NCBI GenBank assembly: GCA_028753945.1
Contig: JAPNXP010000001.1
Coordinates: forward strand, 14,746,501-14,810,500
Length of the DNA stretch: 64,000 bases
Direction of reading: 5' to 3'
DNA from: Hexactinellida sp. DTS-2022
Taxonomy: Eukaryota; Porifera; Hexactinellida
The translations under genes and the position numbers were made by a program. The notes under the pieces were generated by a model that made no database searches, was not told where the DNA came from, and was given only the letters and a program-made list of their open reading frames with translations. This document shows positions 5,576-52,927 of this stretch, in pieces (position 1 is the stretch's first letter; every line of letters begins with the position of its first letter).

Positions 5576-8500
5576 CTAGGTCTCTTGTGTGCATCTCGTG
5601 GTTATGTGGCATCTCCTCACCTGCCGACATTCCCCCGCTGTCTGACCGCAGGAGTTGCTGCGTGTCTGTTCGCCGGCCCCGCAGCTGGCGCTACAGGGCG
5701 ACCAGCTGCTCCAGGCGCCCGTGGGTGTCAGCGCTCCGCTGGGGCCCACGCCCTCTGTAGACACCTCTCCTGAGATAGTACATAGTTATAACAGGAGTAG
5801 TACAGTAGTACTCGGTAGTACAGTATAACCTCGTTAATACGTACAGTAAAACTTGGTTAGTACGTACCTGGTTTAATACATTCTTCGGCTTAGTACGTAC
5901 TAACTTGTATAAACAAACTTTGTCAATTTATATGTACTATCTTATGTAGTGTCATCGGTTAGTATGTACACTCGGATTAATGGGATTATACGTACTAATT
6001 TGTATAAACAAAGTTTGTGAATTTATATGTACAGTAGAACCTCGTTAATACTTAGTACGAATACGGTTAATACGAATTTCTGGATAAGACGAACAAACAG
6101 TTACACAAAATCAGGTCCCTATAATGGCTATTCAATGGGTATTACTCCAGTTAATACGACACACCAACGTTACCGAATTAAGCCAAACGACTGTACTTAA
6201 TAAATATATCTCGTTATAACGAACTACAAGGGACTCTTCGTTTACTCTTCATAATCGAAGATAAATTTATCTGCCTGGGGAATATAAATTCGGGTATTTC
6301 GGTCTATTTGACTTAGTTATAAGGGAGTATACAGTATACTAAAGTGCTTACCTTCAGTCGAGCATGCGATATGTTCCGTGTGAGGACCTCTGCATTTGTA
6401 GGGAGTCAGTCTGCAGGATCTCGTTCTCGTCACAAACCCATTAGAGCAGATATTCCACTCACTCCACTGATTCCAAACTAAACAGAGAATTAAATCATTA
6501 TTCAATAATCCATTCTTCCAATCATTAGTGACGCATTCAAGTTACATCACTTATGTAAGTTTAATTTAGAATTTAAAATAATTGGAATCTAGTATGAGTT
6601 CTAAGGTGACTTAATACTGACAGAACCAAATACCACATAATAGTACGTCAATAGGCAATCCATTGGGCCATTATGCTACCCTAGATGGTATAATCTAGCT
6701 CCAAATGTAGAGAGACTGGTATAAGTGTGCTAATAATGCATTTACATCGCCAGAAGCCAAACAGCTAATACAATTAAGCTAATGGCATTAACTGGAATGC
6801 TATACAAATACTGATACTAAAAATAGCTTGGTTAATAAGCAACCAGCTGGTAATGAATGCGAGACAGGTTTGGCAATCTGTTGTACGAAGCCAGGTGTTA
6901 AATTCCGCAGATATCTAGGAACCAAATTACAACACTGAGTAGACAGTGACATATTTATTTAATATTCTAGGTTAGTTAGTGGGTATTTAGAATGGAGTTT
7001 CAATGAATTATGTTATGGTTAAGGCGAAATATCGGTTAAGGAGTACAAGGCTTAATTAGGTTAGCCTAGACAAATGCATCAAGTGATTCTGATTAATTCC
7101 GGGTAATAATAGCAAATTTCGACGATCCCATTGTAATAACTAGAGTGTCAATCTATTCGTATTGTACTATTTACTTACACAGTGAATATAATATACAACA
7201 GAACCATTCCGACAAAAGTTGGGATAGGGAAAATGTCGGATTGCCAAATTGTCGGATTATGCAGGCTCTAATGCATAGTCCGACGCTTATAGGGATAAGT
7301 AAAGTGTCGGTTCTGCTTAATTCCGGATTATAGAGGGTCGGATTATGCAGGTTCCACTCAGGGAATTATCCAGGAGCGCAAGACGAGTATGATTTAGGAA
7401 AAAATTAATCAGGAGCGCGAAAAATTGGAATCTTCTCCTATACCGTAACATTAATTTGTGATTTAAGCGTATGAAAATTGGATCAGACCAGGAGCGTATT
7501 TACAAACGGCTGTATAATACACTGGTTCCACTGTATCAGTTAACATAAGCTAATTATCCCTCACCTGGAGCACAAGGTGTTTTGTAGTTGCATATGCGCG
7601 TCTGGCTGCTGGAGCCAGTGCATGCTTCCCCGTTGCACTGTCTCTCCCGCGTAGTCATACCGTAGTGACAGGACTGACTGCAGGGAGCCCACTGGGACCA
7701 GCTGTTCCATCTAGAGCCTACACACACACAACAGTAATAAGATACTGTTATAACGTAGTACAGTATAGTATAGTATGTCATAGTACAGTGAACTCCCATT
7801 ATAACGAAGTCGGTTCCCGCTTATATCGAACACACAACAGTACTATAGTCAGGTCTGCTTATTATGAACAAGATTTCGTCTGCTTAATATGTAGATATTT
7901 TATTATGAACAAACCCTACGGTCCCAATTTAACAACTTACATAGGGTTTGTATTAAGTTGAGTTCGCTTATTATGAAGTCTCTCTATTATGAACACAATT
8001 TTTGGTCCCTTGAATGTTTATAATAAAAGAACCTGACTATAGTCTGTTATAACGTACAGTATAGTATGTTATAGTACAATATTAATCGGATCACTTTGGT
8101 AGATGGTAGTTAGACCCTATTAAGCTGAGAACCCAATTACAGAAAATAGTGCAATCCAAACTGTAATTCCGTTGCGTAAATTCTGTGAAAATTCTGTGAA
8201 AAGTTGACCCAATTAACCAGGGGATCTATTTAGTAGAGCCTAGTCTGCTGAATGTATTAAATTTGTAAGTCAGGAGGTGAACGAGGGTTTTAACAGGTAT
8301 AAAACCCCCATTTTCATTCTCCCTTTCAATTGAAATTCAATTACGGGGTAACTTCTATTTCACTTTTATAATCCTGGGCAACCGCTATTATTAACCAGAT
8401 TCATAGACATTAGACAGGTATACATACAGTCTGTTCTCTCTAATAGTCCACTTATTTACTTACCCAAATCAACTATTTATATATCTGTAATAGTCCATAT

Positions 8501-11500
8501 TCTCTAATAGTCCACTTTGGGCCAATTGCCCACTGGTGGACTATTAGAGAGAACAGCGTGTATACATATATGTGTAATAGACTAATAGTATAGTAGCTCC
8601 CTACCTGGACATCTGTATAGGCCGCAGCTCCTGTACTGTCTCCCCTTTCCGCGGGTGCACACGTCTCCTCCGAGACAGGGTCTCACCCGGACCTGCAGCC
8701 CGCCCCCACAGGAGGCAGAGCAGCGACTCCAGGAGCCCCAGGAGCCCCACGCAGACCGATCTACAATAGACACACATTAATAGTTTATTAGCACTAATAT
8801 TACAAAAACTATACTAAATATTATACAGTAGAGCCTCTGAACAACGGACACCTTGGGACCGGAACCGTTGTCAGTTATTTAGAGGTTGTCCGCTATTTAG
8901 AGGTTGCTTTTCTATTAGACATATGCTAAATAAATAAATCCGTGCCACGAGGGTTGTCCGTTATTTAGAGGTTGTCTGCTATTTGGAGTGTCCGTTATGG
9001 GAGGCTCCACTGTATTACCATTTCATTAACTTCATGATAATATGATAGTATTTTATAATTTCAATTCGTGTCTGGAACAACCAATTGATCTTTATTGTGC
9101 TGTATTAGATTTTAAAACCTCGTTAATACGAACCCAGGGGACCGTCAATATGTGTTCGCCTTATCCGAATCTGTATTAACCAATATCATTCGTATTGAAA
9201 AAGTTTTTAGGAGGATTGAAATAGTGTCGTACTATAAACCGAAGTTTCGTATTTACCGTGTCCGTACTAACGAGGTGCTACTGTATACTGTATACTGTAT
9301 ACTGTTACTAAGTACAGTTTACTCCGCTTAATAGAGCCACCTCGGAACCAGGTTGTTTTGACCCAATTAAGCGAAGAAACCGATTAACCGGTGGCTCTAT
9401 TAAGCGGAGTCGACTGAAATGAGGTAATAATACAATATCTTACCTAGTCCTACACATGCGTACTTGTGGCACCTAGTGACTTCATAATTGCTGCCTGCAC
9501 AGACATAGGAGCTATCAGGTTTGTAGCAAATCCTAGTCCGATACTTGTTGCCAGAGTTGCAGCTAACAGAGCAGCTAGACCACACAGACCACTCGGTCCA
9601 CTGCCCAGTGTTAACACTGTAGGGACAGTATAGGGCCTTGACACGCGTGACGTCGATAGGAGTGAGAGAGCTGATGGTACCGAAGTTAGCGCCTCGGAGA
9701 CTGAGGAGAGCTCGTATGGTCTGTTTGTATCCGTCCCGAGTCAGCTGGGCGGAGGTCTTCTTGAGGGAGTGCATGATGCTGTTGTAGTTGTAGTTAGTGC
9801 CGTTAGTGCGAGCCAGCTCCTCCGGGAGAATGTCGAAGTTAGTCTCTCTCCCTGAAAGAGGTAACAGAATAATAATACAGTCAGGTCTGCTTATTATGAA
9901 CAAGATTTCGTCTGCTTAATATGAAGATTTTTATTATGAACAAGCCCTATGGTCCCAATTTAACAACTTGCATAGGGTTTGTATTAGGTTGAGTACGCTT
10001 ATTATGAAGTCTCTCTACTATGAAACACAATTATTGTTCCCTTGAAGGTTCATAATAAAATAACCTGACTGTATTAACATATGGATAGATGCCACTGAGA
10101 TAACTCAAATATTTGTGTAAATAGCAATATAGGAAATAACAGTATTGTATAATAAAGTGCAACCTTGATTATCCGAATTAGTGTGAAGTAATACATTTTC
10201 TAATTCTATAAGCTAAAATAATAAAAAATGACATCCCGATAAACCGAACCAAACTTATCCAAACCTTTTTAATCCAAACCAAACATATAGTATACACCTA
10301 AATACTTGACAGATACTTGTTTTATATAATTCCATTGGAACTTGGAAGTAATATACTTATATACAGTGGAATTGCTTTATTAGCAACTCGCATTTTGCAT
10401 GATATTTGGTTGCTAATTTGGCAGTTGCTAATAAAGCAATTCCACTGTACAAATATTTAAGATTTTTCCCATGTATTTGTATCTCCTGTTCGGACTATGA
10501 GGGTGTATAGTATAGTGTATAGTACCAATGCTTACCAGGCTCCACGTTACTGAAGTCTATAGCTACATTCCTGTCTCTGTCGGGTCGGGTCTCCTCATGT
10601 ACGAACCCAATAGCGTGCAGGATGAGGTGCACAATAGCGTTGCGATATTGACAGGAGGAGGAGCCCAGGGCCACCTCCTGGGACCCGCCCTGTCGACCCA
10701 GGTACGACCAGCACCTACAGATAATATAACAGCTGATTATAATGTAATACAAGTAGTATAATTACAGATAATATTAGTTATAAGTATAGCAATACAAGTA
10801 TAGTATAGTAGAACGTGTTAGTAAGTACAGTTATAAGTATAGCAATACAAGTAATATTATTAGTCACAGTAGAACTCGGTTAGTAGGTATAGTCGACACC
10901 GGTTTTCTAACCAATTCTTTGCATGGAAATAAAATAAAAAATCCTATAGTTAGAATAAACTAATTGAAAATAAATAAATTGGAATTATTTACACATTTCG
11001 AATAAATAGTTAGTTATAAAAACCGATTAGTTAGAAAAATCCGGTGTTAGAAAAACCGGTTTGAGTGTACCTGGTTTCTTACGTACTTCGGCTTAATACG
11101 TCCTAACTTGTATAAACAAGTTTGTTAATGTATATGTACGTGTATGTAGTGTCAACTCGGTTAGTATGTACACTCTGATAATACTACTAATTTTTATCTC
11201 CCGAGGGGTACGCACTAACCGAGTTCTACTGTATATTACAAATTGATTATGTGGTACTTGAGGAGTAATTCACACAAGTCTATAGATATTATTAAATTAA
11301 ATAAACCCGAAAGGACGGAAGCGGGCTGATAAACTAAAAAAATCTGGCCTTAGTAACAATTTCCATCATGAGGCATATAAATGCGTTTCATAAGCACAAG
11401 ACCAATTCAATTCTATTACACAGTAGATTACTACCCGGACGTATATCTTGGAAATAAGTGTATAATTCTACTCCTGTAGAGGTATAATCAATACTTACCC

Positions 11501-14500
11501 GTCATTATCTGTAAACTTAATGTAGTCAGTGGTGGATATATCTGCCCGCAGGAATATAAGGCAGTCTGTCTGAGTCTTGAGACTCGAGATAGCGAGCTCT
11601 ATCAGATTCAATAGTCGAGCGTCTAAACAGATAGAGTATTATAATATGTACAGATAGGATATACAATATAGTCATGGTAGATTGTAGTTAATCTTACATT
11701 CTTGATGTACAGTCGACTCCGCTTAATAGAGTCACCTCGGGACCAGGTTACTTTGACCCGATTAAGGGGAGAAATATTTTAACCGGTGGCTATATTAAGC
11801 GGAGTCGACTGTACCGGTTAATACGAATTTCGGATGAGTACACGTTTTGACGGTCCCTTGGTGTGTGTATTAATGGGTTATACTACTGTATATAGTAATA
11901 TTTACAAAACTATAGTAGGCTATAAGTTATAGTGCCTCAAATGCTGATTTCACAAATTACTAACGGATTTGAAAAAGCTTAATAATCAAAATTAAATATC
12001 CCAAAATCTGTTAATTGCTAAGTCAGATTTTTATCAAGTTTGTTATTAGATTTATTAAGTTTTGTTAACCCAATGTTTACTGTATTGCTATCCCATAGTT
12101 AACATAAACTGTAGAGAGTAAATCTCATTAAATAACTATACTTACCTGTTATAGAAGAAGTATCGTAGTATATGAGACCATACTCCCAATAATGTATCAT
12201 TTTCTCAGGCAAAGCCGTCTGTGGATAGAACTTTCTCGTTGTTATAACCTCGTATATGCTCTGCTGTATCCGAGATAGCTTGATATCGCCCTGGAACAAT
12301 CCTATATAAACAATTTTTATAGTGAGATATTATGCAAATTTTGTGTAAATAATCATTTCTTGTAAGCAAAGAATTTAGAAATACAGGTTTAATATGTAGT
12401 ATAGCCATAGTTTCGCTTTTTCTGTCATAATTTAGTAGTTTTTTCCAAAATATTTAAATTACAAGCTTAGCAATTTTTGTATATTATTTCATGGGGGACC
12501 GCAATACGTTCCCAAATGAATATGGGGACCAAAATGCCATTCTTTTCAAAAAGTTTGGGAACCACTGCTATAGAGTATTACCGTAATCAAAGAACAATCC
12601 TATTGAGTATACCGTAATCAAATACTCAAACAAATCTACATATTATAACATTGATATTAATCTCTGTACAGACTAACTATTACGAGACAATCAGATCATT
12701 ATGTAAATATAGTCTACAATAAAACCACGCAGTGAAAGAAATTTTATAATTACATCTTAAATTCTGGGTGAGATAGCTTAATACAGTCAGGTTCTTTTAT
12801 TATGAAAATTCAAACGACCAAAATTGTGTTCATAATAGAGAGACTTCATAATTAGCGAACTCAACTTTTTGCTAATACAAAACCTATGTGTAAATTTGAA
12901 AAATGATTTTTCTAGGCGCGAAAATCGAGAGATGCTCTCATAGATGTAATATAAAATGAGTAATTTAATCGATCAAAATGTTTGCCTGGATGAAAGCCTG
13001 CTACCAACTTATAGTCCTGCCTATACCCATGAGTTAAACCCAATAGTACACATATTAGTAAGCCTATTGTTTATTTCCCTTCCCTACTAGCCAGTATAAA
13101 TATTATCAGTATTCTACTATTTGATACAACAATTATCCTTACTCGCGTGTAATTTGTCAGAAGATTAATAAGGAAGTATTGAAGCTAACAAGTTCAAAGA
13201 TTCACAGAGCCAAAGTTTAATTAGAAAAGACAGTCGTCCCACTGGCAACCTTACAATTTAATGTTCATTCGTATAATAATATTCAATTGTATTCTTAGAA
13301 ATGCAAAGTACTGAGAGATAACCTATATATTTGTAAGAGATAATTCAAATGAATCCCAAGAGAAAAGTTTTTGGAAATATGCTGATTGTTTGAAAGAGAT
13401 GTAATACCATTTTTAATTATATTGATGAATTATACGGACATTCCAAGGCATAGCCTGGTTGCCAAGATACGTACCTAGATCGCTATTTATCTTTGGAATG
13501 TCTACTACTTTGTTGAGCTGTGCACTATCGTCTTGTAGAATCGAACTGTCGTCTAAAGATAGAGAAGAGATAAAGTAAGTATTTGATAGCAGATTAATTA
13601 ATAACAAATTAATTAGGTACAGTAGAATTTGGTTATAACGTAACTGGGTTAGTACGTACTAATATATTTTAACCAAGTTTATAAAGCAGTAAGCAGTATG
13701 TAATTCTATGTAGGGTAAATTCAAGATAATACATCCTTATTTCCCATCCCGAGGGGGTACGTTATAACCGAATTATACTGTAGGTATTAATATTACTGGG
13801 TAATTGTATACGTACACTCAATGATGACTCAGTATAGCATACATATACAGATACTAAATAACAAGTATCAGATAATCAAATTATTTGAGTTTAAAGGAGT
13901 CACTAATGAGTTCAGATGATATTGTCCCAATTAATTGGAGCAGATTTTGACAACTAGAACACAGAATAAAATTGTTTGTTTGCAACCAAATACAGTAGAC
14001 TCTCGTTAGTACAACACAGATAAGGAAAAATATCGGCTAAGGAGTACAAGGTATAATTCCCCTAGCTTATAGAATGTAGGCAAATTAATCTGGAAAATAA
14101 GGTCCCCTGGTGTTCCTATTTACGAAAATCCACTGTATAATCACAATGATTATACTTGTACACAAGATACTCACTAATAATAATCCTTTCTAATGAAATC
14201 AATAGCTAAGGTAGCAGTTAACTTTACACCAGATTGTCAAATATCCGAGAATGAAAATAGCAGAAATTGCAACAAAATTTCTACGCCGAATAGAATTATA
14301 GCTCAAATGTGAAAGTACATTTATGCGTGGGATTGTTGGTGTAACTCATTCTAGTTACTATCTTGGCTAAATGGTATGTTATAAGGTTACTGATAGCTGA
14401 AAAGCAGTCAAATCAAATCCTGTGGCAGATAAGATATAATTAATTACAAAAAATGCATTTTTGTCAAATTCTTCTATGTGATTGTGGCAATTCAATAGCG

Positions 14501-16463
14501 GAGATGGTACTAGAAGTAAACCATTCAAATACACCATGCAATGATATCTGTGCTTTTACCACATATGTAAATAGAGAGTGCAATTGTATATGGAAGTATA
14601 GGAGAGATTGGTACAGGTTATTATTGTGTTCATGATTTGTTTGACTATTTTCCAAGAATCTTACTATGCATCTTTTAAGTGGTATTTCGTATGAGAACAT
14701 TACCTTAGCTAATCGATAATATTTCTATCATCTACGTATAAACATTTCAAACTAACTTAATGATAACACATCTATTTTCGTATTGTAATTTCTGTCTGTA
14801 TTAGACTTCTCATATATCATACAGTAGAAACTCGATATTACGAAGACTAGGGGACAGTAAAAATGCGTTCGCCTTATCCGAAATCCGTATTACCAATATC
14901 ATGAATTTACTTATCCACCGATCATCGGCGTTTGTATTAAATAACCTGGCTAGTTTCTACCGATGGTGTTTTTTATAAACATAAAAAAACAATCGGTAGA
15001 AAGTAGCAAGGTTTTTAATACAAACGCCGATGATCGGTGGATAAGTAAACTCCAATATCATTTATATGAAAAGCTTTGAGGGGACTGAAATAGTGTTCGT
15101 ATTAACCGCAACTTCGTAATAACCGTGTTCGTACTAACGAGTTTCTACTGTATATTAAATAAGAATTCAATAGAAGAGAAGGGTAATCTGATTATACAAA
15201 TAAAGGGATTCATTAGGTCACATGTGTCCAATACAAATATAGAAAATACCCGAAAAAATGATCGATATTAACTCAAAATAAACGAATTTTCTAATTACTC
15301 TTGTGGACCCATAAATGCTAAGGAATTCTAAAAATTTCATTAAGTGTTAGGTAACAATCTCATTGAGAGGTTTCTGATAATTATAAAATTTTTGAACTTT
15401 ACCATAACGGATTATAAAAGGTTTAAAGTAAACCATCAAAGTATCTCAATTGATTTGATACAAACTATGTATATTATAAATGTATGTACAGATGTTGGAC
15501 TGTGAGATTAGGAGAGATAGAAGTTACACAATTTGTAGATAGGAACTAATGACTGGAAGTGACAGGTTGGTGAGTATTATAAAAATATTCGCAGTTCAGT
15601 CAGTAAAGCGAGGAAGGCAATATGAATCTCCTATCAAAGCAAGGAATGTAGGAATGTTCAGTGTACGTATTCTTATTATATAAATGAATATTATATTTTA
15701 ATCAGATTATCTAGTAGTAATGTACAGAAACCCAGCTCCGCTATAAACATCCTGTAGAATAGTTAGAAGCAATGTTGCTATGTCAAACGGGTTCTAGCAT
15801 TATACATGTCACAGGATAAATACATACTATAAGTCTATACACAATATAATGTGTAGGAGTAACACAATAAGAATATAGTAATAATCAATGACGTTATAAA
15901 GTAATAGAAAACGTACCGTATATACTCTAATAGTAGCCCCTATTCGAATAATTGCCTACCTCCAATAATACCCCAAATTAGCAAATATAAATTTGCTACC
16001 GGTACCCTTAGTAAATTTCTTTATCTATTATTAGTCGCAATACGATTATCAACCGACTATGCTAAATAAATTGTATCAACATGTGATATTCTCGAAAAGT
16101 CACAAAAATTATTGGTCAGAAATGGCCTAAAAAACAATTATCGCCTAGGCTACTATTTGAATAAATACGGTAATAATCAATGACGTTATAAAGTAATATA
16201 AAACGTATTCTAAATTTAGTGCTTATAGAACAATGAGTTGGAAAAGCTAGTTAGTTACAGGTAAACTCACTTGGAAGTATATGTAGCGGGCCTGCTGTTG
16301 CACAGTGTATATGGAGACTCAGTAATAGGAGAGTTAGTAATAGGAATTTACAGTTTGAAAATTGATTATTTGTAGATCTTCTAGTCTGAGTTGCGAATGT
16401 GGAAGAGTGGAATTTCTTCTTTGAGATTTTTGTTAAAAAAATTGCATTGTATTGTCCAGCCAT
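5576..16463 (-). CDS. Astacin-like metalloprotease homologue with five TSP1 repeats; predicted catalytically dead
   Basis: Ten exons (16463-16271, 13552-13475, 12301-12146, 11622-11499, 10714-10536, 9851-9444, 8760-8605, 7717-7565, 6477-6352, 5769-5576) join in phase to 588 aa. Residues 38-58 form a hydrophobic signal or anchor after a basic lead. The prodomain keeps the FQGDI aspartate-switch motif (93-97). The protease domain has GCWSYLGRQGG (184-194). Its zinc site reads HLILHAIGFVHE (213-224): all three histidines are present but the general-base Glu is Leu214. The Met-turn is SIMHS (268-272), so the usual Tyr ligand is Ser. Five TSP1 modules follow (from 326, then one per exon in exons 7-10), each exon bounded by phase-1 introns. 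Secreted or surface location is likely. The intact frame and splice sites argue for a maintained pseudoenzyme. The true start could lie in an unseen upstream exon. Confidence 0.9.
5821..6200. mobile_element. Cluster of pogo-like MITE pieces (families A and E)
   Basis: Several CAGTA(G/A)AACCTCGTTAATACG-type and CAGTAAAACTTGGTTAGTACG-type ends lie head to tail, ending near AACGACTGTA. They are degenerate and partly nested. They sit in the last intron of the astacin-like gene. Confidence 0.65.
7375..7528 (-). repeat. Interspersed repeat, GGAGCG family
   Basis: A copy of a roughly 180-bp repeat whose other members are at 17524-17704, 32657-32816, 33991-34174, 36566-36757, 38906-39087 and 44245-44418. 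Hallmarks are the end GGAATTATCCAGGAGCG and the internal GATCAGACCAGGAGCG. The better ends (GAATTATCCAG on both sides at 36566-36757) suggest a MITE with short inverted ends. Confidence 0.7.
7847..8038. mobile_element. pogo-like MITE, family C
   Basis: Inverted ends AGTCAGGTCTGCTTATTATG and TATAATAAAAGAACCTGACT, flanked by TA. It lies in an intron of the astacin-like gene. Non-coding. Confidence 0.8.
8431..8556. mobile_element. MITE, family F (uninterrupted copy)
   Basis: Perfect 21-bp inverted ends beginning CTGTTCTCTCTAATAGTCCA. The interior contains a further inverted copy of the same motif. This copy acts as the empty-site reference for the interrupted copy at 23560-23797. Confidence 0.82.
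8826..9012. mobile_element. pogo-like MITE, family G
   Basis: Ends CAGTAGAGCCTCTGAACAAC and ATGGGAGGCTCCACTG with TA on both sides. The interior repeats GGTTGTCCG(C/T)TATTTAGAG in tandem. A related copy is at 23038-23165. Confidence 0.8.
9114..9283. mobile_element. pogo-like MITE, family A (left end decayed)
   Basis: Right end GTACTAACGAGGTGCTACTG followed by TA. The left end begins near AACCTCGTTAATACGAAC and lacks a clean CAGT. Intronic. Confidence 0.7.
9315..9416. mobile_element. pogo-like MITE, family B
   Basis: CAGTTTACTCCGCTTAATAG at the left and TAAGCGGAGTCGACTG at the right, about 100 bp. It sits 28 bp downstream (on the minus strand) of the donor of astacin exon 6. Confidence 0.8.
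9878..10071. mobile_element. pogo-like MITE, family C
   Basis: TA-flanked element with ends CAGTCAGGTCTGCTTATTAT and AAAATAACCTGACTG. It is 27 bp from the acceptor of astacin exon 6. Confidence 0.85.
10364..10447. mobile_element. pogo-like MITE, family D, 84 bp
   Basis: Ends CAGTGGAATTGCTTTATTAG and AATAAAGCAATTCCACTG form a 20-bp inverted repeat flanked by TA. A minimal hairpin element. Confidence 0.88.
10867..11231. mobile_element. pogo-like MITE, family E
   Basis: Ends CAGTAGAACTCGGTTAGTA and TAACCGAGTTCTACTG. The inside is a second decayed element with GTCGACACCGG and CCGGTTTGAGTGTAC ends, so this may be two nested copies. Intronic in the astacin-like gene. Confidence 0.7.
11710..11811. 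mobile_element. pogo-like MITE, family B
   Basis: CAGTCGACTCCGCTTAATAG and its inverted copy at the right end, flanked by TA. 102 bp, non-coding. Confidence 0.88.
12784..13000. mobile_element. Family C MITE fused to a CATCCAGG-type MITE fragment
   Basis: The left part (12784 to about 12890) starts CAGTCAGGTTCTTTTATTAT and lacks its right end. The right part ends TGCCTGGATGAAAGCCTG at 13000, matching the right end of 43050-43203. The join suggests deletion across two neighbouring insertions. Confidence 0.6.
13620..13780. mobile_element. pogo-like MITE, family E-like
   Basis: CAGTAGAATTTGGTTATAAC and its inverse GTTATAACCGAATTATACTG, with a TA at the right border. It lies 67 bp upstream of astacin exon 2 on the minus strand. 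Confidence 0.78.
14822..15149. mobile_element. pogo-like MITE, family A, interrupted by another MITE
   Basis: Ends CAGTAGAAACTCGATATTAC and ACGAGTTTCTACTG, flanked by TA. The 9-bp-TSD element 14903-15053 is inserted in its interior. Removing the insert and one CCAATATCAT leaves a normal family A interior. Confidence 0.85.
14903..15053. mobile_element. MITE, GAATTTACTTATCC family, nested insertion
   Basis: 151 bp with inverted ends GAATTTACTTATCCACCGAT and GGTGGATAAGTAAACTC. It is flanked by CAATATCAT at 14894-14902 and 15054-15062. It shares its core with the copy at 1164-1347, so the 9-bp duplication is a family trait. Confidence 0.88.
15914..16172. mobile_element. MITE, TACCGTA-ended family, with 37-bp flanking repeat
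   Basis: Ends TACCGTATATACTCTAATAG and ACTATTTGAATAAATACGGTA. A sister copy is at 30679-30941. It is bracketed by a 37-bp direct repeat (15879-15915 and 16171-16207, one mismatch), much longer than any transposase duplication expected for such an element. It is 63 bp from the first exon of the astacin-like gene, inside intron 1. Confidence 0.8.
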
Positions 16464-17523
16464 AGTGTAGCCAATAAAAAATATTTACAATAGGATCTGT
16501 AAAAAAGACAGAATAATTGCAATTCAAAAACGGCCAAAAGGTTATTTGAAACTAGTATGCAGTAATACACCAGTATATATAGTGAAACTGGGAAGAAAGG
16601 AATTTCTAGGTTGAAATATACTTCTAAGGTAATAACCCACACTGTGTATGCTATGTCATCACATAACACAACTAATGAAGGAAAAATCAATCAAAATGTG
16701 TTCGCACATATTAAGGATTTGAAAAATAGAAGTATATTTCATAAATTTAAGTAATTAATGGGGTTTTTTAATTCATTTAATTAATACTAGTTCAATTAAT
16801 ATCAGTCTCCATTAATTCTAAAGCGCTAAAAAGTAAACTCCATGTATAATGAAATGTATAGGAATAATACTTCGTTATAAGCGGAGTTTACTATATGCAA
16901 TAATAAAATTAATATTACACTGAAGTTCGCGTAATAGCAAGTCGCATTTGGCACAAATTTTCTGCTAATAGGCGAAAATATTGAAATTAGAGGAACATAA
17001 TTAATTCACAATTAAATGCTCTCTTGGGAATGAAAGTGATTTGGTATTAGGCGAATTGAAAACGTAAATTCTACTGTATTATCTCAGAATGGTTAAGTGA
17101 ACGAAAAAACTAATACAAAATGAAGCTAGATTTAATGTCCATAAACTGAGACATTAACAAAGTGATTATTAAGCCTATAACTTTTAGTACAGTATCGACT
17201 AATAAGTTTAGTTTGCTATAACTTAACTAGTATAATTAAGCTGAACTAAAACTATATTATTCATATAATCAATATTTAATTGAGAACTATTTATATTAGA
17301 ATAGGTTGATTAGGTACTGCATGCCAAAGTGAATTAGTCACAATAGTACAAAGTGTAATGGAATAAAGTATGTAGAATATCTATTTTTAAAGCCAGTATT
17401 TATAGATAATTCGGTAATAGCTAATTTAGTGTTTATATGAACTGGCTAAAAGCCTGTATTTTAGTAATTAGTTTAGATACAGCTTACATTATCTGTTAAT
17501 TGTTATTCCTAATATATTACTCC

Positions 17524-17704
17524 AGTGTATTATACAGCCAATTGTAAATACGCTCCTAATCCTGGTCTGATCCAATTTTCATAAGCCTAAATCACAAATT
17601 AATGTTACGGTATAGGAAAGGTTCCAAAATTTCGCGCTCCTAATTAAATTTTCCAAAAAATCATGCTCCAAAAGGAGCGTCTCGCTCTCCTGGATAATCC
17701 CTTG
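17524..17704 (+). repeat. Interspersed repeat, GGAGCG family
   Basis: Shares TACGCTCCTAATCCTGGTCT, then ATCACAAATTAATGTTACGG, then AAAAGGAGCGTCTCGC and TCCTGGATAAT with the other copies listed under 7375-7528. Confidence 0.75.
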
Positions 17705-18022
17705 TATTACTCCCATTGAAAATTGATGTAGCAGAATCTATTAAATACACTTGCTATTTAAATATGTTAAGCTAGTATGTGTCCAGAGTAATTCGACTAC
17801 AATACAACTTCTATAATCCGAAGACCCTGGCTGGTCTCAAATGTTATTCCATAAATAGTTTAGCCTTAAACTAACCGAGTTATTTGCAAGCTTCATATGG
17901 TATATGGTATCCTTATTATCATTTTTTCAATAGACGAATTTTTTCTGAGGATTTATAAAAAATACAGTATATTAAATCTTGTGCTTCTTAACCATATACT
18001 GTAGACGTAAGCTATATAACTA

Positions 18023-18181
18023 CAGTGGAGTTGCTTTATTTTTGGCACTAAATCTGGTTGCTAATAGGCGAAGTTTCTAATAGGGGAATGAATTAACAGA
18101 ATTATAGCTTGGGACCCGAAAAGCGGTTGCTAATAAAGCAAGATTGCTAATAGGGAAGTTGCTAATAAGGCAACTCCACTG
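18023..18181. mobile_element. pogo-like MITE, family D
   Basis: CAGTGGAGTTGCTTTATT and GCTAATAAGGCAACTCCACTG ends, flanked by TA. The interior keeps several GTTGCTAATA repeats. Confidence 0.82.
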
Positions 18182-18854
18182 TATGTGAATAGGAATTTCA
18201 ATGCATGTATATAAGTTAGCGTCTATATAAAGAGGCCAGTACAGATGGTATAGCATTAATGCTAAAGTGCTAGAATGATATAATACAGGTTACAGTAGCA
18301 TGATTAGGAAATCTATTAGAATCACCTAAAGAACAGATGTACTATTATTCTAGTGATTAAGGAAATGGTAATATCAGGTACCATATGTCCTAGTATACAT
18401 ATTGTCAGTGAATGGAAAGAATGCACACAATATGGAATCGGTATAATTATTGAACTAGAAAGGCTACAAACAAATTGTTCATGTGGATATTTAGAACTGA
18501 TGTAATGTAAACAATAACAGGAAATAAGAAAAGTGAATTGGATACAAATACAATAGGGTTTTCGATAATCTCGTGAAAATATTCAGAAGAACATACGGTA
18601 TAATATTATCACTTGAAATACTGGCATAACTAATTTAGACAGTTTTACTAAAGTGCTTACTTACTTGTCTAATGATTATTTTATAACCCGAGTAAAATGA
18701 GAAAATCTATTTACGTACTGTTATAACTAGAACTGAGCTCTATGGTAGTTTTATAACAGTTTGTTACAGTCTAAATGTCATTACAATTATCTAAGAACAT
18801 TTGTGTAATTATTATTTAATTATTTTAAAGATTAACTGAAAAGGCCTAGAGTTA

Positions 18855-19027
18855 CACTATAACCTCGTTTGTACTAACACCAGGGGACTGTCAAAATGCG
18901 TTCGCCTTATCCGGAATTCGTATTAGTCATTATCATTTGTATTGAAAATACTTTGAAGGGTAATGAATAGTGTTCGTATTAACCAGAATTTCGTATTAAC
19001 CGTGTTAGTACTAACGAGGTTCTACTG
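18855..19027. mobile_element. pogo-like MITE, family A
   Basis: Left end CACTATAACCTCGTTTGTAC and right end ACTAACGAGGTTCTACTG. The interior has the family motif TGCGTTCGCCTTATCCGGAA. Confidence 0.8.
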
Positions 19028-21610
19028 TATACTCGTGTCATAATGAGGGACACATCATAATTTTAGGGATCATAGAGAGAAATAATATTTCTATTTTTAT
19101 ACAATTCAAATAAACAAACTAATCAGATAATATGCCGGCCGTACATATTATGCAAAATATAAATTCTCCTCTAATTGCTTATTGTTACATTTAACTTGGC
19201 TTCCTACAAAAAATATTATATTATATCATAATGGAATTAAGTAATTTGCCAACCCAAGGAATTAGATTCTGTATAATGAATGGTTAATAACTTAATGTTG
19301 TATTACGTACTAAGTAGTGTTAACTTAATTAACAATAATGAACAAAAGACTCAATGCAAACATTGAAAGAGAGTCCGAAAGTTTGTTAATAAAACATGCT
19401 ATTTTACTTAAATGCTGAATAAAATTGAAAAAAAATATTTTGAAAAATGTTAAAATATTACTGTTTTCAGACAAGAATGTATGTAGCATCAATTTTGAAA
19501 ATAACTATATTATTATTTAAAATAACATTTACCAGTAGAATATTAAATATTTAATTGAAGAATAAGCAGGAAGATACGTAGTTCAAATTTAATGATTCTT
19601 AAATATAACTTTATATTCCAAAACAACAACACAAATTAAAACACCAAATTGCAAAGCCCACTTAATTAAACTCAAGTATAATTAAACTTCTAATTTATTC
19701 AAATATAAAGCAACTAATTCCAGGCGTAACAGACTCTACAAATTAAGTTAAGCTAGAATATAATGTTACAATGAAAGATTTACAATTAATTCAAATGTAT
19801 AAATTATAATTAATTGGTTGCTGTACTGATAACACTGGGGTGCGATATAGTTATAGATTGGTTTATAATTAAGTTTGATTTGCAGGCAGTACTTATGGTA
19901 TTACTCTAGTAAAATATGTAATAGATAGTTGTATTCAAGTCTTAATTATAACATGGGCTTACTTATATATCGGTCAATATTGTTCGATAAAAAAACCTGA
20001 TTTGGAAAAGGGGCTTTTTGATGATAAAAATTACCTTTAAATTGCATGAAAGTTACATTATAAGAGGATATACGTATAATATTCCATTTAATATTATTTG
20101 AATTATTGCTACTTATGTTAGCAAAACACAAGTTTTAATAAATCAATCAATCATTATTTAGATAAAATTATATGTGGTTGATGCAAGTGTTCGTTAAATA
20201 TCAAATTGTTGTTATAAATAGAAGTGTGATAATTAACTTTCAAGGGAAATATTGTTTATCCTTTTGTACAAAAAATGAAATGTTAACAACATTTATTCTA
20301 TTTTCAATTGATTTTTCAAAGGCTGTACAATATCTTAGGAAACCAGGAATTGATAATATACAAAATGAACGCAACTGCAAAATAATTAATCATAAACTTG
20401 TGTAACTAAATATATTACATTATATTAATCTATCCAATTAGCATTAAAAAAAACATATAAATATGTAGTATAGTATAGTATAGTATAGTATATATTTAAC
20501 AAATAAACACAATAGTAACTAATTTCAAACTCACCTAACACTAATATCAGTTGTATAAAAATGTTACTATAACGCCATTATATTCAAACTGAGGCCTTTT
20601 ATACTCATCAATAGAACGAAACTAATCTGTTAAATTCCGCAGGGATCTATCTATCTACATCTGCTTGTTATAGTTACTAAGGATTAATTGATAAATCCAT
20701 TCAGTAGACTACACTTAACTGTAACCATAGACGTCCAGCTTTTATTTGCAGAAATAATGTATGGGTGTCAAATTTACAGGTGGGATCTACAATAGTATAT
20801 TACAGTAGTACAATAGACAGTAGGTTTCGCCAAATAACAACTTGTATATACCTACCAAATTCCAAGAATCGTCTCAATTTTAGTATTTCCAACCAATATT
20901 AATGCAACCTCAAAAATCCAAACACACCAGGCTGGTCTCAATATATTCCATAATTAGTTCAGCCATAAATTACCCGAACATATTTGACTGGTCCCAACTA
21001 GTTCTCATAATCAAGTTGCACTGCATTAGCTTATAATTAACTGTATAACCTCACAAGAAAGAAACGCCCAGTCTTAAATAAAACCATTATTGTAAATTTG
21101 AAACAGTGGGAACGCCACTGGTGGGGCACACGAACATTAATCTTAAACCGCAGCCCCTAATATTTGAATTAATGTTTCATACCAGAAGTAGCTAGTAGAA
21201 TAGAGTATTGATTACTCGAGTAAAGCTAGAAATAAGTAAGTCAGCTGTATTCATATTTGCAGCTTTCCAGAATTAATAAATACAGTGGATACCAGTTATA
21301 AGAACATAAAACCGGTATTAACTGGAATATACAGTACGTTTACGGTATAATTATCAGTTTAGCAAGGTATACATTTGTATGGTTTATGCCAAAATAAATG
21401 CGTGGGATTAACACTAGTCAATAATTGAAATGCTCTTCATTATTATAAATCAACCAACTGTCTATCCTAGACCAGTAGGATAATTTCACCTGAACCTGTT
21501 GCAATACCACACAGCTAAAATCTGCATATAAGCTTACATTAGTTTTATCCCACTAATCCCACCTGCACATCTTATAATTAATGGATTATACTCACGGGAT
21601 AGCTTATCTA

Positions 21611-22030
21611 CTAGGGTGCGACCCGTGCGGGCTTTATTGTAAATCACGGGCTGTGGCCCATTTTCCACAGGCCGCGGGCCCAAAACGGGCCGAAGAGACA
21701 AAAAGATCAATATTTAATTTTTCAATAACAAATAAATGTAAACGTTTAGATGCACTAAAGCTACTAACTTCCACCATTAATTGAAAGAAAAGGAAACAAC
21801 TAACGAAACTATCAAAGTGTTTCCGCCCGTATAAAAAGTTTAATAAATATACTATTTGCGCATACGATTTCCCGCATATTATAACCTCGGGAATTATATG
21901 AATTCTCAATTCTTAGAGAATATTTCACGAATTCAGCCAACGGTGCCATAAAATAAAAAAAATTCCTAAATCGCGGGCTGGCGGTTAAATAAGCGGGCCA
22001 CGGGCCACGGCTTTACGGGTCGCACCCTAG
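21611..22030. mobile_element. hAT-type MITE with perfect 8-bp TSD
   Basis: Perfect 16-bp inverted ends CTAGGGTGCGACCCGT at 21611 and back from 22030. Target duplications CTTATCTA are at 21603-21610 and 22031-22038. The interior near both ends is rich in CGGGC motifs. 420 bp, no transposase. Confidence 0.92.
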
Positions 22031-22477
22031 CTTATCTAGGATTTTCTTGGCCGATACTTTTTATGGAGTAAAAAAAAAATATATTTTTTATTTATTTTAA
22101 TTTTGCATAATTCACTAATATGCGGCATTATTGAAGGAGAATAAATTTGACGGTACCCAAACAGGCCTGGTTTATCCAGGAATTTCTGGGCTGAAAATCT
22201 CAGACACTCGACACTTAAATCAATCAAACTGCAATCACCTTGGCACTTCAACCGATTCCTGGCTGGAATCGGTTAAACCCCTGATAACATTATACAGGGT
22301 TTTATCTAGGAACGCGCCATACGCTTAGAGGCGTATTTATTGGGAATCTGGGATATGTTTGCGTTTAGGAGCGCGAAAACTACTGAAAGTCCCCATATAG
22401 TAATACAAAACTAACCTTTTAGGCACACAAATTCATACTCTAGTGACCTTAGGAGTATTCAATTATAGCCCTGTATA

Positions 22478-22730
22478 CAGTGGATACCGGATATAAGAAC
22501 ATCGTCGGGAACTGCAAATAATGTTCTTATAATCAGCATAAATTATACAGGGTATATGGAAACCGATTTCCAAAATAATGTTCTTATAACCAGTGTGTTC
22601 TTTTATCCGGTGTTCTTATATCCGGTATGTTCTTATAACCAGTGTTCTTATATCCGGTATGTTCTTATAACCAGTGTTCTTTTATCCGGTATGTTCTTAT
22701 AACCAGTGTTCTTATATCCGGTATCTACTG
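22478..22730. mobile_element. pogo-like MITE, family H, with internal tandem repeat
   Basis: Ends CAGTGGATACCGGATATAAG and TATCCGGTATCTACTG flanked by TA. The right half (about 22590-22725) is an array of TGTTCTTATAACCAG and TGTTCTTATATCCGGTA units, which are expanded copies of the terminal repeat itself. A decayed relative begins near 21280. Confidence 0.85.
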
Positions 22731-22794
22731 TAATATGCTACATGACAGAATACGTTATTATAATATAGCTATAGTTCTATAAGGGATCAGGTAG

Positions 22795-25700
22795 CTACAC
22801 AATATCGTCCTCGCTGGAGGGAGCTGTCTCAGTGGGCTGCTGCTGGTCTGACACAATATGCGCGTTGAGAGAAGTGCGCATGTCCCGAGCTGACAGGTCG
22901 CTGTAGGGGGACTGGGAGGAGTCAGCTGGGGAGGGCAGGTCCGGGCCCCCCAGGCGAGACAGCTTTATAGCGTCTGTGTAGCTAGGGGGGGACTTGAGGG
23001 GGGCGGGGGCTCTCTAGTGAATATAGAAGTTGTATTACAGTGGAGCCTCCCATAACGGACAACCCTCGTGGCACGGATTTATTTATTTAGCATATGTTTA
23101 ATATAAAAGCAACCTCTAAATAGCGGACACCGGTTCCGGTCCCAAGGTGTCCGTTGGCTCTATTGTATTACTTCAAGTAATAGGTGTTATAACGAATTGT
23201 TATTAAGACCCAGTAAATTTCGTTATAATGGGACTGCACTCATTTTCTAGACTCAAAGTTGTGTTAATACTATATTATTCCTAGGTATCGTTACCCCAGA
23301 AAACCTGAAATTAGCCCTATGGGGGAACTTACCCCTAATTGCCGACCACTGATTTAAGTGTATTATGATACTCGATTAACACCACAGTACAGTAGAACCT
23401 CGTTAATACGAACACCAACGGACGGTAAAATTGTTCGCTTTATCCAGAGTTCGATTAACCGGAGTCATACCCATTCAATAGCCATTGTAGGGACCTGATT
23501 TTGTGGAACTATTTGTTCGTCTTATCCGGAAATTCGTATTAACCGTGTTCTACTGTACTCTGTTCTTTCTAATAGTCCACCAGTGGGCGATTGGCCCAAA
23601 GTGGACTATTATAGAATATGGACTATTACAGATACAGTCGACTCCACTTAATAGAGTCACCTCGGGACCAGGTTGCTTTGACACGATTAAGCGGAGAAAT
23701 CTAAGCTATTAAGCGGAGTCGACTGTATATAAATAGTTCATTTAGACAAGTAAATAAGTGGACTACTAGAAAAGTGGACAATTAGAGAGAACTCCTGATA
23801 TAATAGCAAGTTGCATTTCACACGAAATTAGCTTGCTAATAGGCGAACTTAGAGGCATAATTAATATTAAATGCTTTCTTGGGGACTGAAAATAGCTTGC
23901 TATTAGGCGAACACCACTGTATAACGAAATAACCGCTTATAACTAAATGGAGGTTTTACCCAGGGTTGCCAATCCAATCCAATCCAATCGACAATCCAAT
24001 CCAATCGAGCCAAATTTGGACAATCGGCAATCCAAATTTGGACAATCGATTATTCGGATGATAATCCAATCGCAATCGACAATCCAAAATATCATCGATT
24101 CTTTTGGATTGTTTCTCCGATTTTTTTCGATCGTTTACTGCTCAGTATTATATCAAAAAGAGTTATGTTTCATCATATGTTCAAACTTAAAACATATATT
24201 ATTGGGTTTAATTTACGAGCAATTGAGCATTTTAAATTTTGGCATTATTTAGATATTGAAAAAACAAACAATCGGAAAAAATCGATGAAATTCATCGATT
24301 GCAATCCAATCGATAATCCAATCGATGAAAAATGCAGCAATCCAATCGACAATCCAATCGATGAAAAATGCAGCAATCGGCAATCGAAAATATTCTCGAT
24401 TGGATTGGATTGGCAACCCTGCTGTTTTACCTGAGAGCACTAAATGCATTAATTATTACTCGTTTATAGCGAATATCCGGATATAATGAAGGGATTTATA
24501 GGTCCCAAGCACTTCGTTATAACTAGAGTAAAGGTGCGAGTACAAACTATACAACTTTGGAAAGAAAAATGCAACTAATCACACGTCAGTTAATAGAAGT
24601 CACACTGACACAAGTATGCTTTAATCAGCAAAGAGGAACTGAAATTACAAGACGGGAATAAAATAAAATAATATTATTCCGTCGCCTAACCACATATAAA
24701 TTACAATACGTATATAATATTTTTGAAGTATAAGCGAAGGAAATAAATCTAGTGAAAAATATGAAAACTCCCGTAGCGCGGAAAGAACGAACAGCTTCCA
24801 ATAATGATTTAATCGAGTTCACAGTCTAACAGACAAATGCGTGGAATTGCTTGGGCTAACGAGGTTCTACAGTATTATACGTAGATATTGTTAGAATATA
24901 ATTGAATATGCATATGATAAAATTGATCGGTTGTGTCAGGTCATTGAGTTCCATCTGGTGTATAGTCGACTGAAATAAATTTCCTCTCCAGATTGAAATT
25001 CACTGGTATGTGTGATTTAAAAAATAATATTATATTAAGAACATTCAAGGGACCAAAATTGTGTTCATAATAGAGAGACTTCATGATAAGCGAACTCAAC
25101 TTAATACAAGCCCTATGTAGGGTGTTAAATTGGGACCATGGGACTTGTTCATAATAAATAAAAAGATATTCACAAAGCAGACCCGACTGTATTAAATAAT
25201 ACAGCAAACATTCGATAATCGGGCCCTAATAAACGGGAAAGTTTTTGCTTTCACCAGAAGTGTCCCAAATATCGAGTGTAGGTTGATATGCACGAGCACT
25301 TCGGTTTCCAACCAACCAACCAACCAACCAACCAACCAACAACCAACCAAACAACCAACCAAACAAATAACAAACAAACAAACACAACAATCGAGTTTTA
25401 ATATATTACGTCTTACTAACCAGCATTGCTATATCCGAGGTAGCAGCCTTAGCCACCTGATCCTGGAGAGCAGTGGCAGCTAGAGACTTATCCTGAAGCT
25501 GAGCGCTGACGGACCCCAGCTGTTCCTGAAGATCCGATATCTAAATAGGTCACACTAGTTAATAGCAGAGACTAGTTAGTAGCAGAGACTAGTTAGTAGC
25601 AGAGACTAGTTAGTAGCAGAGACTAGTTAATAGCAGAGACTAGCTAATAGCAGAGACTAGTTAATAGCAGAGACTAGTTAATAGCAGAGACTAGTTAGTA

Positions 25701-28700
25701 GCAGAGACTAGTTAGTAGCAGAGACTAGTTAATAGCAGAGACTAGTTAATAGCAGAGACTAGTTAGTATCAGAGACTAGTTAATAGCAGAGACTAGTTAA
25801 TAGCAGAGACTAGTTAATAGCAGAGACTAGTTAATAGCAGAGACTAGTTAATAGCAGAGACTAGTTAATAGCAGAGACTAGTTAATAGCAGAGACTAGTT
25901 AATAGCAGAGACTAGTTAATAGCAGAGACTAGTTAATAGCAGAGACTAGTTAATAGCAGAGACTAGTTAATAGCAGAAATTGGTTAATAGCAGAGACTAG
26001 TTAATAGCAGAGACTAGTTAATAGCAGAGACTAGTTAAATAGCAGAGACTAGTTAATAGCAGAGATTAGTTAATAGCAGAGACTAGTTAATAGCAGAGAC
26101 TAGTTAAATAGCAGAGACTAGTTAATAGCAGAGATTAGTTAATAGCAGAGACTAGCTAATAGCAGAGACTAGTTAATAGCAGAGACTAGTTAATAGCAGA
26201 GACTAGTTAATAGCAGAGATTAGTTAATAGCAGAGACTAGCTAATAGCAGAGACTAGCTAATAGCAGAGACTAGTTAATAGCAGAGACTAGTTAATAGCA
26301 GAGACTAGTTAATAGCAGAGACTAGTTAATAGCAGAGACTAGTTAATAGCAGAGACTAGTTAATAGCAGAAATTGGTTAATAGCAGAGACTAGTTAATAG
26401 CAGAGACTAGTTAATAGCAGAGACTAGTTAGTAGCAGAGACTAGTTAATAGCAGAGACTAGTTAGTAGCAGAGACTAGTTAGTATCAGAGACTAGTTAAT
26501 AGCAGAGACTAGTTAATAGCAGAGACTAGTTAATAGCAGAGACTAGTTAATAGCAGAGACTAGTTAATAGCAGAGACTAGTTAATAGCAGAGACTAGTTA
26601 ATAGCAGAGACTAGTTAATAGCAGAGACTAGTTAATAGCAGAGACTAGTTAATAGCAGAGACTAGTTAAATAGCAGAGACTAGTTAATAGCAGAGATTAG
26701 TTAATAGCAGAGACTAGCTAATAGCAGAGACTAGTTAATAGCAGAGACTAGTAAATATCAGAGACTAGTTAATAGCAGAGACTAGTTAATAGCAGAGACT
26801 AGTTAATAGCAGAGACTAGTTAATAGCAGAGACTAGTTAATAGCAGAGACTAGCTAATAGCAGAGACTAGTTAATAGCAGAGACTAGCTAAATAGCAGAG
26901 ACTAGTTAATAGCAGAGACTAGTTAATATCAGAGACTAGTTAAATAGCAGAGACTAGTTAATAGCAGAGATTAGTTAATAGCAGAGACTAGCTAATAGCA
27001 GAGACTAGTTAATAGCAGAGATTAGTTAATAGCAGAGACTAGTTAATAGCAGAGACTAGTTAATAGCAGAGACTAGTTAAATAGCAGAGACTAGTTAATA
27101 GCAGAGACTAGTTAATAGCAGAGACTAGCTAATAGCAGAGACTAGTTAATAGCAGAGACTAGTTAATAGCAGAGACTAGTTAATAGCAGAGACTAGTTAA
27201 TAGCAGAGACTAGTTAATAGCAGAGACTAGTTAATAGCAGAGACTAGTTAATAGCAGAGACTAGTTAATAGCAGAGACTAGTTAATAGCAGAGACTAGTT
27301 AATAGCAGAGACTAGTTAATAGCAGAGACTAGTTAATAGCAGAGACTAGTTAATAGCAGAGACTAGTTAATAGCAGAGACTAGCTAAATATCAGAGACTA
27401 GTTAATAGCAGAGACTAGCTAATAGCAGAGACTAGTAAATAGCAGAGACTAGTTAATAGCAGAGACTAGTTAATAGCAGAGACTAGTTAATAGCAGAGAC
27501 TAGTTAATAGCAGAGACTAGTTAATAGCAGAGACTAGTAAATATCAGAGACTAGTTAATAGCAGAGACTAGTTAATAGCAGAGACTAGTTAATAGCAGAG
27601 ACTAGCTAATAGCAGAGACTAGTTAATAGCAGAGACTAGTTAATAGCAGAGACTAGCTAAATATCAGAGACTAGTTAATAGCAGAGACTAGTTAATAGCA
27701 GAGACTAGTTAATAGCAGAGACTAGTTAATAGCAGAGACTAGTTAATAGCAGAGACTAGTTAATAGCAGAGACTAGTTAATAGCAGAGACTAGTTAATAG
27801 CAGAGACTAGTTAATAGCAGAGACTAGTTAATAGCAGAGACTAGCTAAATATCAGAGACTAGTTAATAGCAGAGACTAGCTAATAGCAGAGACTAGTAAA
27901 TAGCAGAGACTAGTTAATAGCAGAGACTAGTTAATAGCAGAGACTAGTTAATAGCAGAGACTAGTTAATAGCAGAGACTAGTTAATAGCAGAGACTAGTA
28001 AATATCAGAGACTAGTTAATAGCAGAGACTAGTTAATAGCAGAGACTAGTTAATAGCAGAGACTAGCTAAATATCAGAGACTAGTTAATAGCAGAGACTA
28101 GTTAATAGCAGAGACTAGCTAAATATCAGAGACTAGTTAATAGCAGAGACTAGCTAATAGCAGAGACTAGTAAATAGCAGAGACTAGTTAATAGCAGAGA
28201 CTAGTTAATAGCAGAGACTAGTTAATAGCAGAGACTAGCTAAATATCAGAGACTAGTTAATAGCAGAGACTAGTTAATAGCAGAGACTAGCTAAATATCA
28301 GAGACTAGTTAATAGCAGAGACTAGCTAAATATCAGAGACTAGTTAATAGCAGAGACTAGTTAATAGCAGAGGAATAACATAGGCGCAATAAATGGGGGA
28401 AATAGTGGTTTTTATGACGTAGTAAAGGCTTCATTTAAAGTATTCCGTTGGCTTTAGTCATATTTAAAGATTATTCTATAAGTACAGTGAGTTTTTGAGG
28501 AAAAATACATAACATTGTAAATTGACTAAAGGTTAGGGGCAAAACCATTTTCAGGGGAGGCGAAATCAAACCAGCTGGAAAAACCTTGATACTTAGAGAT
28601 TATTATATTAGTACTTGGGATAACCGAAAGTATTATTTTTTGGTTTACTTATTGAAAACAAACAAAACAAAGTATGTTCACGAACAGACAAAGGATCTAA

Positions 28701-50230: not shown

Positions 50231-50499
50231 TCTCTTGCTATACTAATGTAATATAGAACTCGCGTATTAGCAGTTAGACTAATACAGCGAAACTTCGATT
50301 ATCCGAACGCGTTCGGAGCAGTCAAACACATAGCCAAAACCCCTCCCCAGGATAATTTTGGGACCCTGAAATTCTTACTATCCAAATAAAATCCGTCGAA
50401 TATGCATAATTTTCATAATAATGATACTCAGCCACCTATTATCACTTTCCTGCTGCAGGCCTGGTCAAACATGATCGGCTAATGGAAGTTACTTCTCAT

Positions 50500-51963: not shown

Positions 51964-52927
51964 TCTATATTATTAAATCTCGATTGTTGTTTGTGTGTGT
52001 GTGTGTGTGTGTGTTTGTTTGTCCGGATTGTATTAAAGTGATTGGGGGAATAGAAACCGCAATTAATATTGAGATATAAACTAACTTTCAAATGTTATAA
52101 TAGGTAAACAAATGTTATAATAGGTAAACAAGTATGCTGAACACGAATTTCGCGTTTATAAATTTCTCATATGAATATTTGTTGTTGTTGTTTACACAAA
52201 ATAGGTAAACAAATTAATGAAAATTCAAAATCAACCTAGAAGTTAGCTTTCAACGGGTATTATAGGTAAACAAGTATGCTGAACACGAATTTCGCGTTTA
52301 AAAATTTCTCATATGAATATTTGTTGTTGTTGTTTACACAAAATAGGTAAACAAATTAATGAAAATTCAAAATCAACCTAGAAGTTAGCTTTCAACGGGT
52401 ATTATAGGTAAACAAGTATGCTGAACACGAATTTCGCGTTTAAAAATTTCTCATATGAATATTTGTTGTTGTTGTTTACACAAAATAGGTAAACAAATTA
52501 ATGAAAATTCAAAATCAACCTAGAAGTTAGCTTTCAACGGGTATTATAGGTAAACAAGTATGCTGAACACGAATTTCGCGTTAAAAAATTTCTCATATGA
52601 ATATTTGTTGTTGTTGTCTACACAAAATAGGTAAACAAATTAATGAAAATTCAAAATCAACCTAGAAGTTAGCTTTCAACGGGTATAATAGGTAAACAAG
52701 ATGATGAACACGATTTTCGCATTTATAAAATTCTAATATGAGTATTTGTTGTTGTTGTTGTTGTTTACACAAATAGGTAAACAAATTAATAAAAAATTCA
52801 AAATCATAACGCCCCTTTCTACCATTTCCATGGTAGAAAGTGTGAGGAGTAAGGCCGCACAGCGGCCGTTAACTTGAGGTGCGTAGCACCGATCTGTCGC
52901 AAAGCGACCGAGACCGAAGGGCTCGTA
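51964..52927 (+). mobile_element. Helentron/HINE-like element, copy 2
   Basis: Starts A|TCTATATTATTAAATCTCG, then (GT)n and TCCGGATTGTATTAAAGTGA. About five tandem units of 142 bp follow (starts at 52121, 52263, 52405 and onwards). The 3' module (52812-52927) holds five consecutive hairpins and ends GGGCTCGTA. It occupies the sequence just upstream of SNRPE and may overlap its promoter. Confidence 0.85.

Follow-up and report, generated by a model that had tools for sequence, protein, structure and literature searches.

The window analyzed here, a 64-kb stretch of DNA from Hexactinellida sp. DTS-2022, harbors an astacin-TSP1 gene whose product is best explained as a secreted multidomain astacin pseudopeptidase, maintained, folded and probably zinc-binding, that would act as a binding or matrix protein (we give this reading a probability of about 0.6). 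The protein is a clear peptidase homologue, encoded by an intact gene, from which an essential catalytic residue is absent: M12A astacin peptidases are recognized by HExxHxxGxxHE with the catalytic Glu and by SIMHY with the zinc-binding Tyr, whereas the active-site helix of this domain, in exon 5, reads HLILHAIGFVHE and its Met-turn, in exon 6, reads SIMHS. As judged from its motifs, the protein is an M12A homologue departing from these catalytic criteria, i.e., a pseudopeptidase, and its domain is very probably both catalytically dead and folded.

Gene structure and domain architecture

The gene occupies positions 16463-5576 of the minus strand; its ten exons join in frame and the reading remains open up to a stop codon after 588 residues, while the nine introns are all GT-AG, in phase 1 in eight cases and in phase 2 in intron 4. 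The intactness of exons and splice sites, as asserted in an earlier sequence-only reading of this DNA, was therefore borne out. The encoded protein is composed of a leader, a prodomain with the FQGDI motif, an astacin domain and five TSP1 modules. Exon 1 (16271..16463), with a putative ATG start, a signal peptide with leader FLLLTLLLLSLHIHCATAG and a phase-1 donor (AA|GTGAGT), was the sole candidate past the thresholds (hydrophobic leader plus phase-1 donor) in a scan of 13560-24000, and its call is tentative because the N-region ahead of the leader is long. The prodomain starts in exon 2 (13475..13552; GT-AG, phase 1 to phase 1), and exon 3 (12146..12301) carries the aspartate-switch FQGDI (12296-12282) together with the predicted start of the mature protein. 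The latter is placed at Ala120 (ALPEKMIHYW) from the alignment of Trp129 with Trp10 of the PDB astacin and TLL1 chains. Exon 4 (11499..11622) encodes the N-terminal astacin subdomain with the first disulfide Cys, exon 5 (10536..10714) the active-site helix continuing into ETRPDRD, and exon 6 (9444..9851) the Met-turn, the end of the astacin domain and TSP1 module 1 (about 9444-9615). Modules 2, 3, and 4 are encoded by exon 7 (8605..8760), exon 8 (7565..7717), and exon 9 (6352..6477), respectively, and the fifth by exon 10 (5576..5769), which includes the stop codon and is without a hydrophobic tail. The interval 9444-10714, to which the sequence-only reading had assigned the altered domain, coincides exactly with exons 5 and 6 plus the intron between them.

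Exon 4 is bounded by introns that occur at the same place and in the same phase in two paralogues: the phase-1 intron ahead of DARLL and the phase-2 intron ahead of CWSY share position and phase with introns of L022 and L023, two of five paralogues and both pieced together from exons, as compared by eye at their junctions, where one donor of L023 reads GC. Being common to two other astacin genes, these introns provide independent support for the gene model, and they rule out a retrocopy. The coding sequence has a GC3 of 0.58 compared to an intron GC of 0.30-0.37, a contrast in favor of a maintained gene, although exons 1-4 reach a GC of just 0.35-0.44.

The astacin domain was recognized by Pfam (PF01400) with 133.6 bits (cut-off 22.5) and E 8.4e-39, over residues 129-319 of the protein and 2-188 of the 189 profile positions. 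TSP_1 (PF00090) matched with E 7.6e-28, four stretches passing singly, and the Cys/Trp pattern (28 Cys, 9 WxxW) resolves the five modules previously counted, the one in exon 9 having 4 Cys where 6 are usual. Astacin and TSP1 were the only families retrieved, and none of the M12B family matched at E ≤ 0.001 in Pfam.

Repeats were found within the introns of the gene (9312-9416/11707-11811 and 7832-7993/9864-10024; 87-94% alike), and many 'cagtagaacctcgtt...' pieces, noted by eye in the same introns, resemble small transposable elements. Elsewhere in the window, an NHL-repeat gene on the plus strand (1656-2938; Pfam NHL E 3e-14 for the last frame) looks broken, with a frame that moves within 1754-2009 and an in-frame stop at 2207-2209, and its decayed appearance contrasts with the nearby intact astacin gene. 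The pronounced skew of GC and AT at 26-28 kb can be accounted for by a 17-base tandem repeat (25554-28372; 165 copies, 94% matches). Three further tandem arrays, repeating every 140 bases or so and located at 39237-40051 (142), 52116-52806 (142), and 54309-54608 (139), flank FKBP-like and LSM-domain exons on both sides, the unit of the first array being the opposite strand of the units of the other two. The FKBP-like exon (49592-50242, minus strand) is preceded by a 'PIES' repeat run encoded by a 15-base tandem repeat, and a Mutator-like transposase frame (Pfam PF20700, E 6.8e-29) lies at 61043-62683 on the plus strand.

Catalytic residues lost within a retained framework

The three zinc His codons of the exon 5 helix start at 10629, 10617, and 10599, the Leu that stands in place of the catalytic Glu is encoded by CTC (10626-10624), and the Ser replacing the Met-turn Tyr by TCC (9768-9766). 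Both losses, as well as the persistence of the zinc histidines and of the FxGDI prodomain switch, had been proposed from the letters of the sequence, and each was found as described. The kept zinc His and Met-turn Met would be in line with a protein that is still a peptidase, with another residue serving as base, and losing the Met-turn Tyr by itself does not necessarily abolish activity, as other metzincins are without it. Nonetheless, Leu cannot be a base and the adjoining helix residues (V, I, and L) are non-acidic. According to passages of a 2023 astacin survey, the Glu is the general base needed for catalysis, the Tyr is a zinc ligand swinging out in catalysis, and the Asp of FxGDI blocks the zinc in the zymogen (PMC9848320); a persisting peptidase activity is thus very improbable.

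The Glu would also be missing if the assembly or the gene model were in error, or if HExxH were provided by an alternative exon, possibilities that we regard as highly unlikely. The CTC codon lies mid-exon, in an otherwise clean frame, and is three bases away from GAA and from GAG; since the paralogues use GAG (3) or GAA (2), it differs from their Glu codons at all three bases. When all six frames of the window were scanned for a contiguous HExxH or for the long motif, a procedure that an intron-split motif would escape, three places came up, namely the gene's own, HERAH (plus strand, 44844) and an HTHTH repeat (52009), the last two both outside the astacin-TSP1 gene. Contiguous HExxH was present neither on the minus strand of the 64-kb window nor on either strand within the gene, and the alternative HExxH exon, which the sequence-only reading had named as one finding that would refute it, was accordingly rejected for contiguous motifs. 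Moreover, among the matches listed in a Pfam search of the sponge's own genome, contig C1 holds just the two astacin exons of this gene.

The framework surrounding the lost residues is largely kept. When 12 domains were aligned, near-invariance (≥90% alike among the 11 other domains, with nine or more present) was seen in 30 columns, of which the window domain keeps 24, including the three zinc His, the Met, the Glu that follows the third His, the R, D, and R of xxRxDRD, Cys185 and Cys205. The family-specific Glu and xxRxDRD are found in exon 5 as HEETRPDRD. Four disulfide Cys are at aligned places, their pairing as C42-C198 and C64-C84 being predicted from the alignment only, with the astacin pairing and numbering given in passages of the 2023 survey (PMC9848320). 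The six positions lost are Pro135 (to Tyr), Glu214 (to Leu), Asp265 (to Asn), Tyr272 (to Ser), Phe280 (to Leu), and Ser307 (to Thr). When the same test was applied by leaving one domain out, all 11 others kept 23-27 of 27-33 positions, the lowest being a partial PDB stretch (23) and one bacterial domain (25/33), and each of the five paralogues kept 27 of 28-30, which makes the window domain the least conserved astacin among those found in the genome. Phe280 is downstream of the Met-turn and adjoins a gap, and the S1' GQR is replaced by GTI, a loss by which the substrate cleft may be altered.

Paralogues, age and maintenance of the gene

The Pfam search of the own genome yielded at least nine astacin stretches, read as six genes, i.e., the window gene and five others, and HExxH and S[IV]MHY occur in all five of the latter. 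Two of these paralogues, C18:1842086 (L001) and C6:5261824 (L002), also combine astacin and TSP1, and provided the best TSP1 matches outside the window gene. Like the window gene, they encode a prodomain (EGDI or EGDM), an astacin domain and TSP1 modules; unlike it, they are single open exons with canonical HExxH and S[IV]MHY, three TSP1 modules (counted by eye), and a C-terminal hydrophobic tail that appears GPI-signal-like and that the window protein does not have. Their Pfam Astacin scores were 215.2 and 201.8 bits, respectively, vs. 133.6 for the window domain. On these features, L001 and L002 may be active counterparts of the window protein that are held at the membrane by a GPI anchor.

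The nearest paralogue found, the C6:5261833 gene, is just 33% identical to the window gene, which rules out a recent duplicate of an active gene. Identity in the alignment is 25-32% between the window domain and the five paralogues (29% for C18, 31% for C6) and 34-46% among the paralogues themselves. The end branch of the window domain was the longest in the tree of the 12 domains (3.65), with four paralogues at 0.65-1.66 and the fifth at 2.48. One of the nine inner branches, the C18 and C6 pair, was well supported; we do not believe the joining of the window domain with crayfish astacin (73/59). Low identity and longest branch together indicate that the gene is old, has evolved faster than its canonical relatives, and is no fresh copy.

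Among 58 bacterial genomes, 23 astacin matches at E ≤ 1e-20 were obtained in 14 genomes, with some overlapping loci. HExxH was found in 23/23, with a pattern whose second residue was free, and the Met-turn Tyr in 22/23, the exception (L050) giving no Met-turn match because the stretch ends soon after the helix. No orthologue of the window gene occurred in the genome or viral contig collections scanned: the scan of genome contigs returned two bacterial astacins, from Bdellovibrio sp. and Pseudobacteriovorax sp., both HEIMH, and the viral contigs no astacin match. In the sponge genome, one of four Peptidase_C1 exons read, out of 32 matches, carries CGSSWAF with Ser for the catalytic Cys in a silicatein-like manner that hints at a sponge (L063, G000:C1:17465759-17465995), and is possibly a second inactive protease relative.

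A long branch would also fit a recently dead gene, whose function was lost lately and whose stops have still to accumulate. In simulations of neutral decay, which assume a simultaneous loss of constraint across the whole gene and single-base changes only, the probability of no new stop was still 0.476 at 0.01 changes per site, but fell to 0.033 at 0.05, to 0.002 at 0.1, and to 0 of 1000 at 0.2. A GAG codon was changed at all three bases with probabilities of 0.00013, 0.0006, and 0.005 at 0.05, 0.1, and 0.2 changes per site, respectively, and the 24 kept positions all survived with probabilities of 0.05 at 0.05 and 0.004 at 0.1. The change of Glu to CTC takes three base changes, to which that of Tyr to TCC is to be added, and at ≤0.05 changes per site a triple-changed Glu codon has a probability of at most 0.00013, a point weakened if a multi-base mutation took place. 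Damage is expected where a codon is rewritten base by base without constraint, and the gene shows none: its splice sites are all intact and random decay with stops, which the sequence-only reading named, if seen in relatives, as a pattern contradicting its view, is absent from the window copy. Neutral decay that lasted until the whole Glu codon was replaced would almost always introduce stops, an argument that fails if the codon changed by multi-base mutation or while selection held the rest of the gene. A gene dead only recently is accordingly improbable and, as far as can be judged from its sequence, the window gene probably has a maintained function.

Proposed role and comparison with known systems

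Attachment to matrix or cell surfaces is a common property of TSP1 modules. The loss of the catalytic residue, with metal site and adhesive modules kept, makes partner binding the most likely activity of the protein, and not digestion. The astacin domain would fold and bind zinc through its three His, as suggested by the ligands and by PDB 3lq0, the prodomain Asp would keep the zymogen latent as in a true astacin, and, being without the general-base Glu, the domain would be unable to hydrolyse peptides. The protein would instead act by binding, with the TSP1 modules anchoring it in the matrix or at cell surfaces and its non-cutting cleft, or the domain surface, holding a ligand such as a matrix protein, or else some substrate or inhibitor shared with the two canonical TSP1-astacins. 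The decoy, adhesion and matrix roles earlier offered as an inference are likewise proposals. Counting against the reading as a whole are the fewer near-invariant positions kept than in the paralogues, the longest branch, the lower Pfam Astacin score and the lost S1' GQR.

The astacin domain might alternatively be a passive spacer in a TSP1 matrix or adhesion protein, still folded and with its disulfides but with no ligand of its own and maybe no zinc. The longest branch of the 12, the changes in the S1' region and in the Phe after the Met-turn, and a TSP1 part keeping its 28 Cys and 9 WxxW are compatible with such a role, but a spacer has no need for the three zinc His, the N-terminus-binding Glu, xxRxDRD and FQGDI, all of which are kept, and we judge it rather unlikely. 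A secreted binding protein, possibly a competitor of the two canonical TSP1-astacins, is favored over the spacer. That its ligands are shared with the canonical TSP1-astacins, as against a purely structural matrix role, is a tentative proposal that we hold to be somewhat less probable than its converse. A dedicated M12A pseudopeptidase, with zinc site and zymogen switch retained, that regulates the animal's canonical TSP1-astacins through competition for their matrix sites, substrates or inhibitors appears unlikely; if true, it would represent a pseudoprotease paired with active paralogues in an early-branching animal.

Among ADAMs and carboxypeptidases, pseudopeptidases are already well documented. 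Inactive metallopeptidases were reviewed in 2024; that review covers ADAM, M14 and other cases and mentions astacins once, and no M12A pseudopeptidase is named in its passages considered here (PMC11266112). The 2023 astacin survey, in the passages on its selection, took only intact zinc motifs with minimal substitutions, a rule by which dead astacins would be filtered out (PMC9848320). Titles and abstract openings of the literature searched name no astacin pseudopeptidase, a mention in full text being possible. A natural astacin in which Glu is lost while zinc ligands and switch are kept would offer a clean test of the non-cutting roles of the fold.

Crayfish proastacin in PDB 3lq0, in a form that we take to be a laboratory mutant and not natural, reads HALMH and aligns with the window protein at E 8.1e-29. 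Like the latter, it belongs to the astacin family and has the aspartate switch and a replaced Glu (Ala); unlike it, it is without TSP1 modules. Zinc and switch residue are both described for it in a figure legend of the 2023 survey (PMC9848320), and fold, zinc and aspartate switch can therefore coexist with the loss of Glu. By motif, the nearest analogues are ADAM7 (HQLGHNLGMQHD) and ADAM29 (HHLGHNLGMNHD), two M12B pseudopeptidases included in Table 2 of the 2024 review, and the pseudopeptidase ADAMs, as its passages present them, are, like the window protein, multidomain metzincins that keep the three zinc His and the Met-turn with Glu replaced (PMC11266112). They differ in being M12B and in carrying disintegrin modules and a membrane anchor, not TSP1. 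ADAMTS-like proteins are extracellular, TSP1-bearing, metzincin-related and non-proteolytic; they have, however, lost the whole protease domain, whereas the window protein has lost only the catalytic residues.
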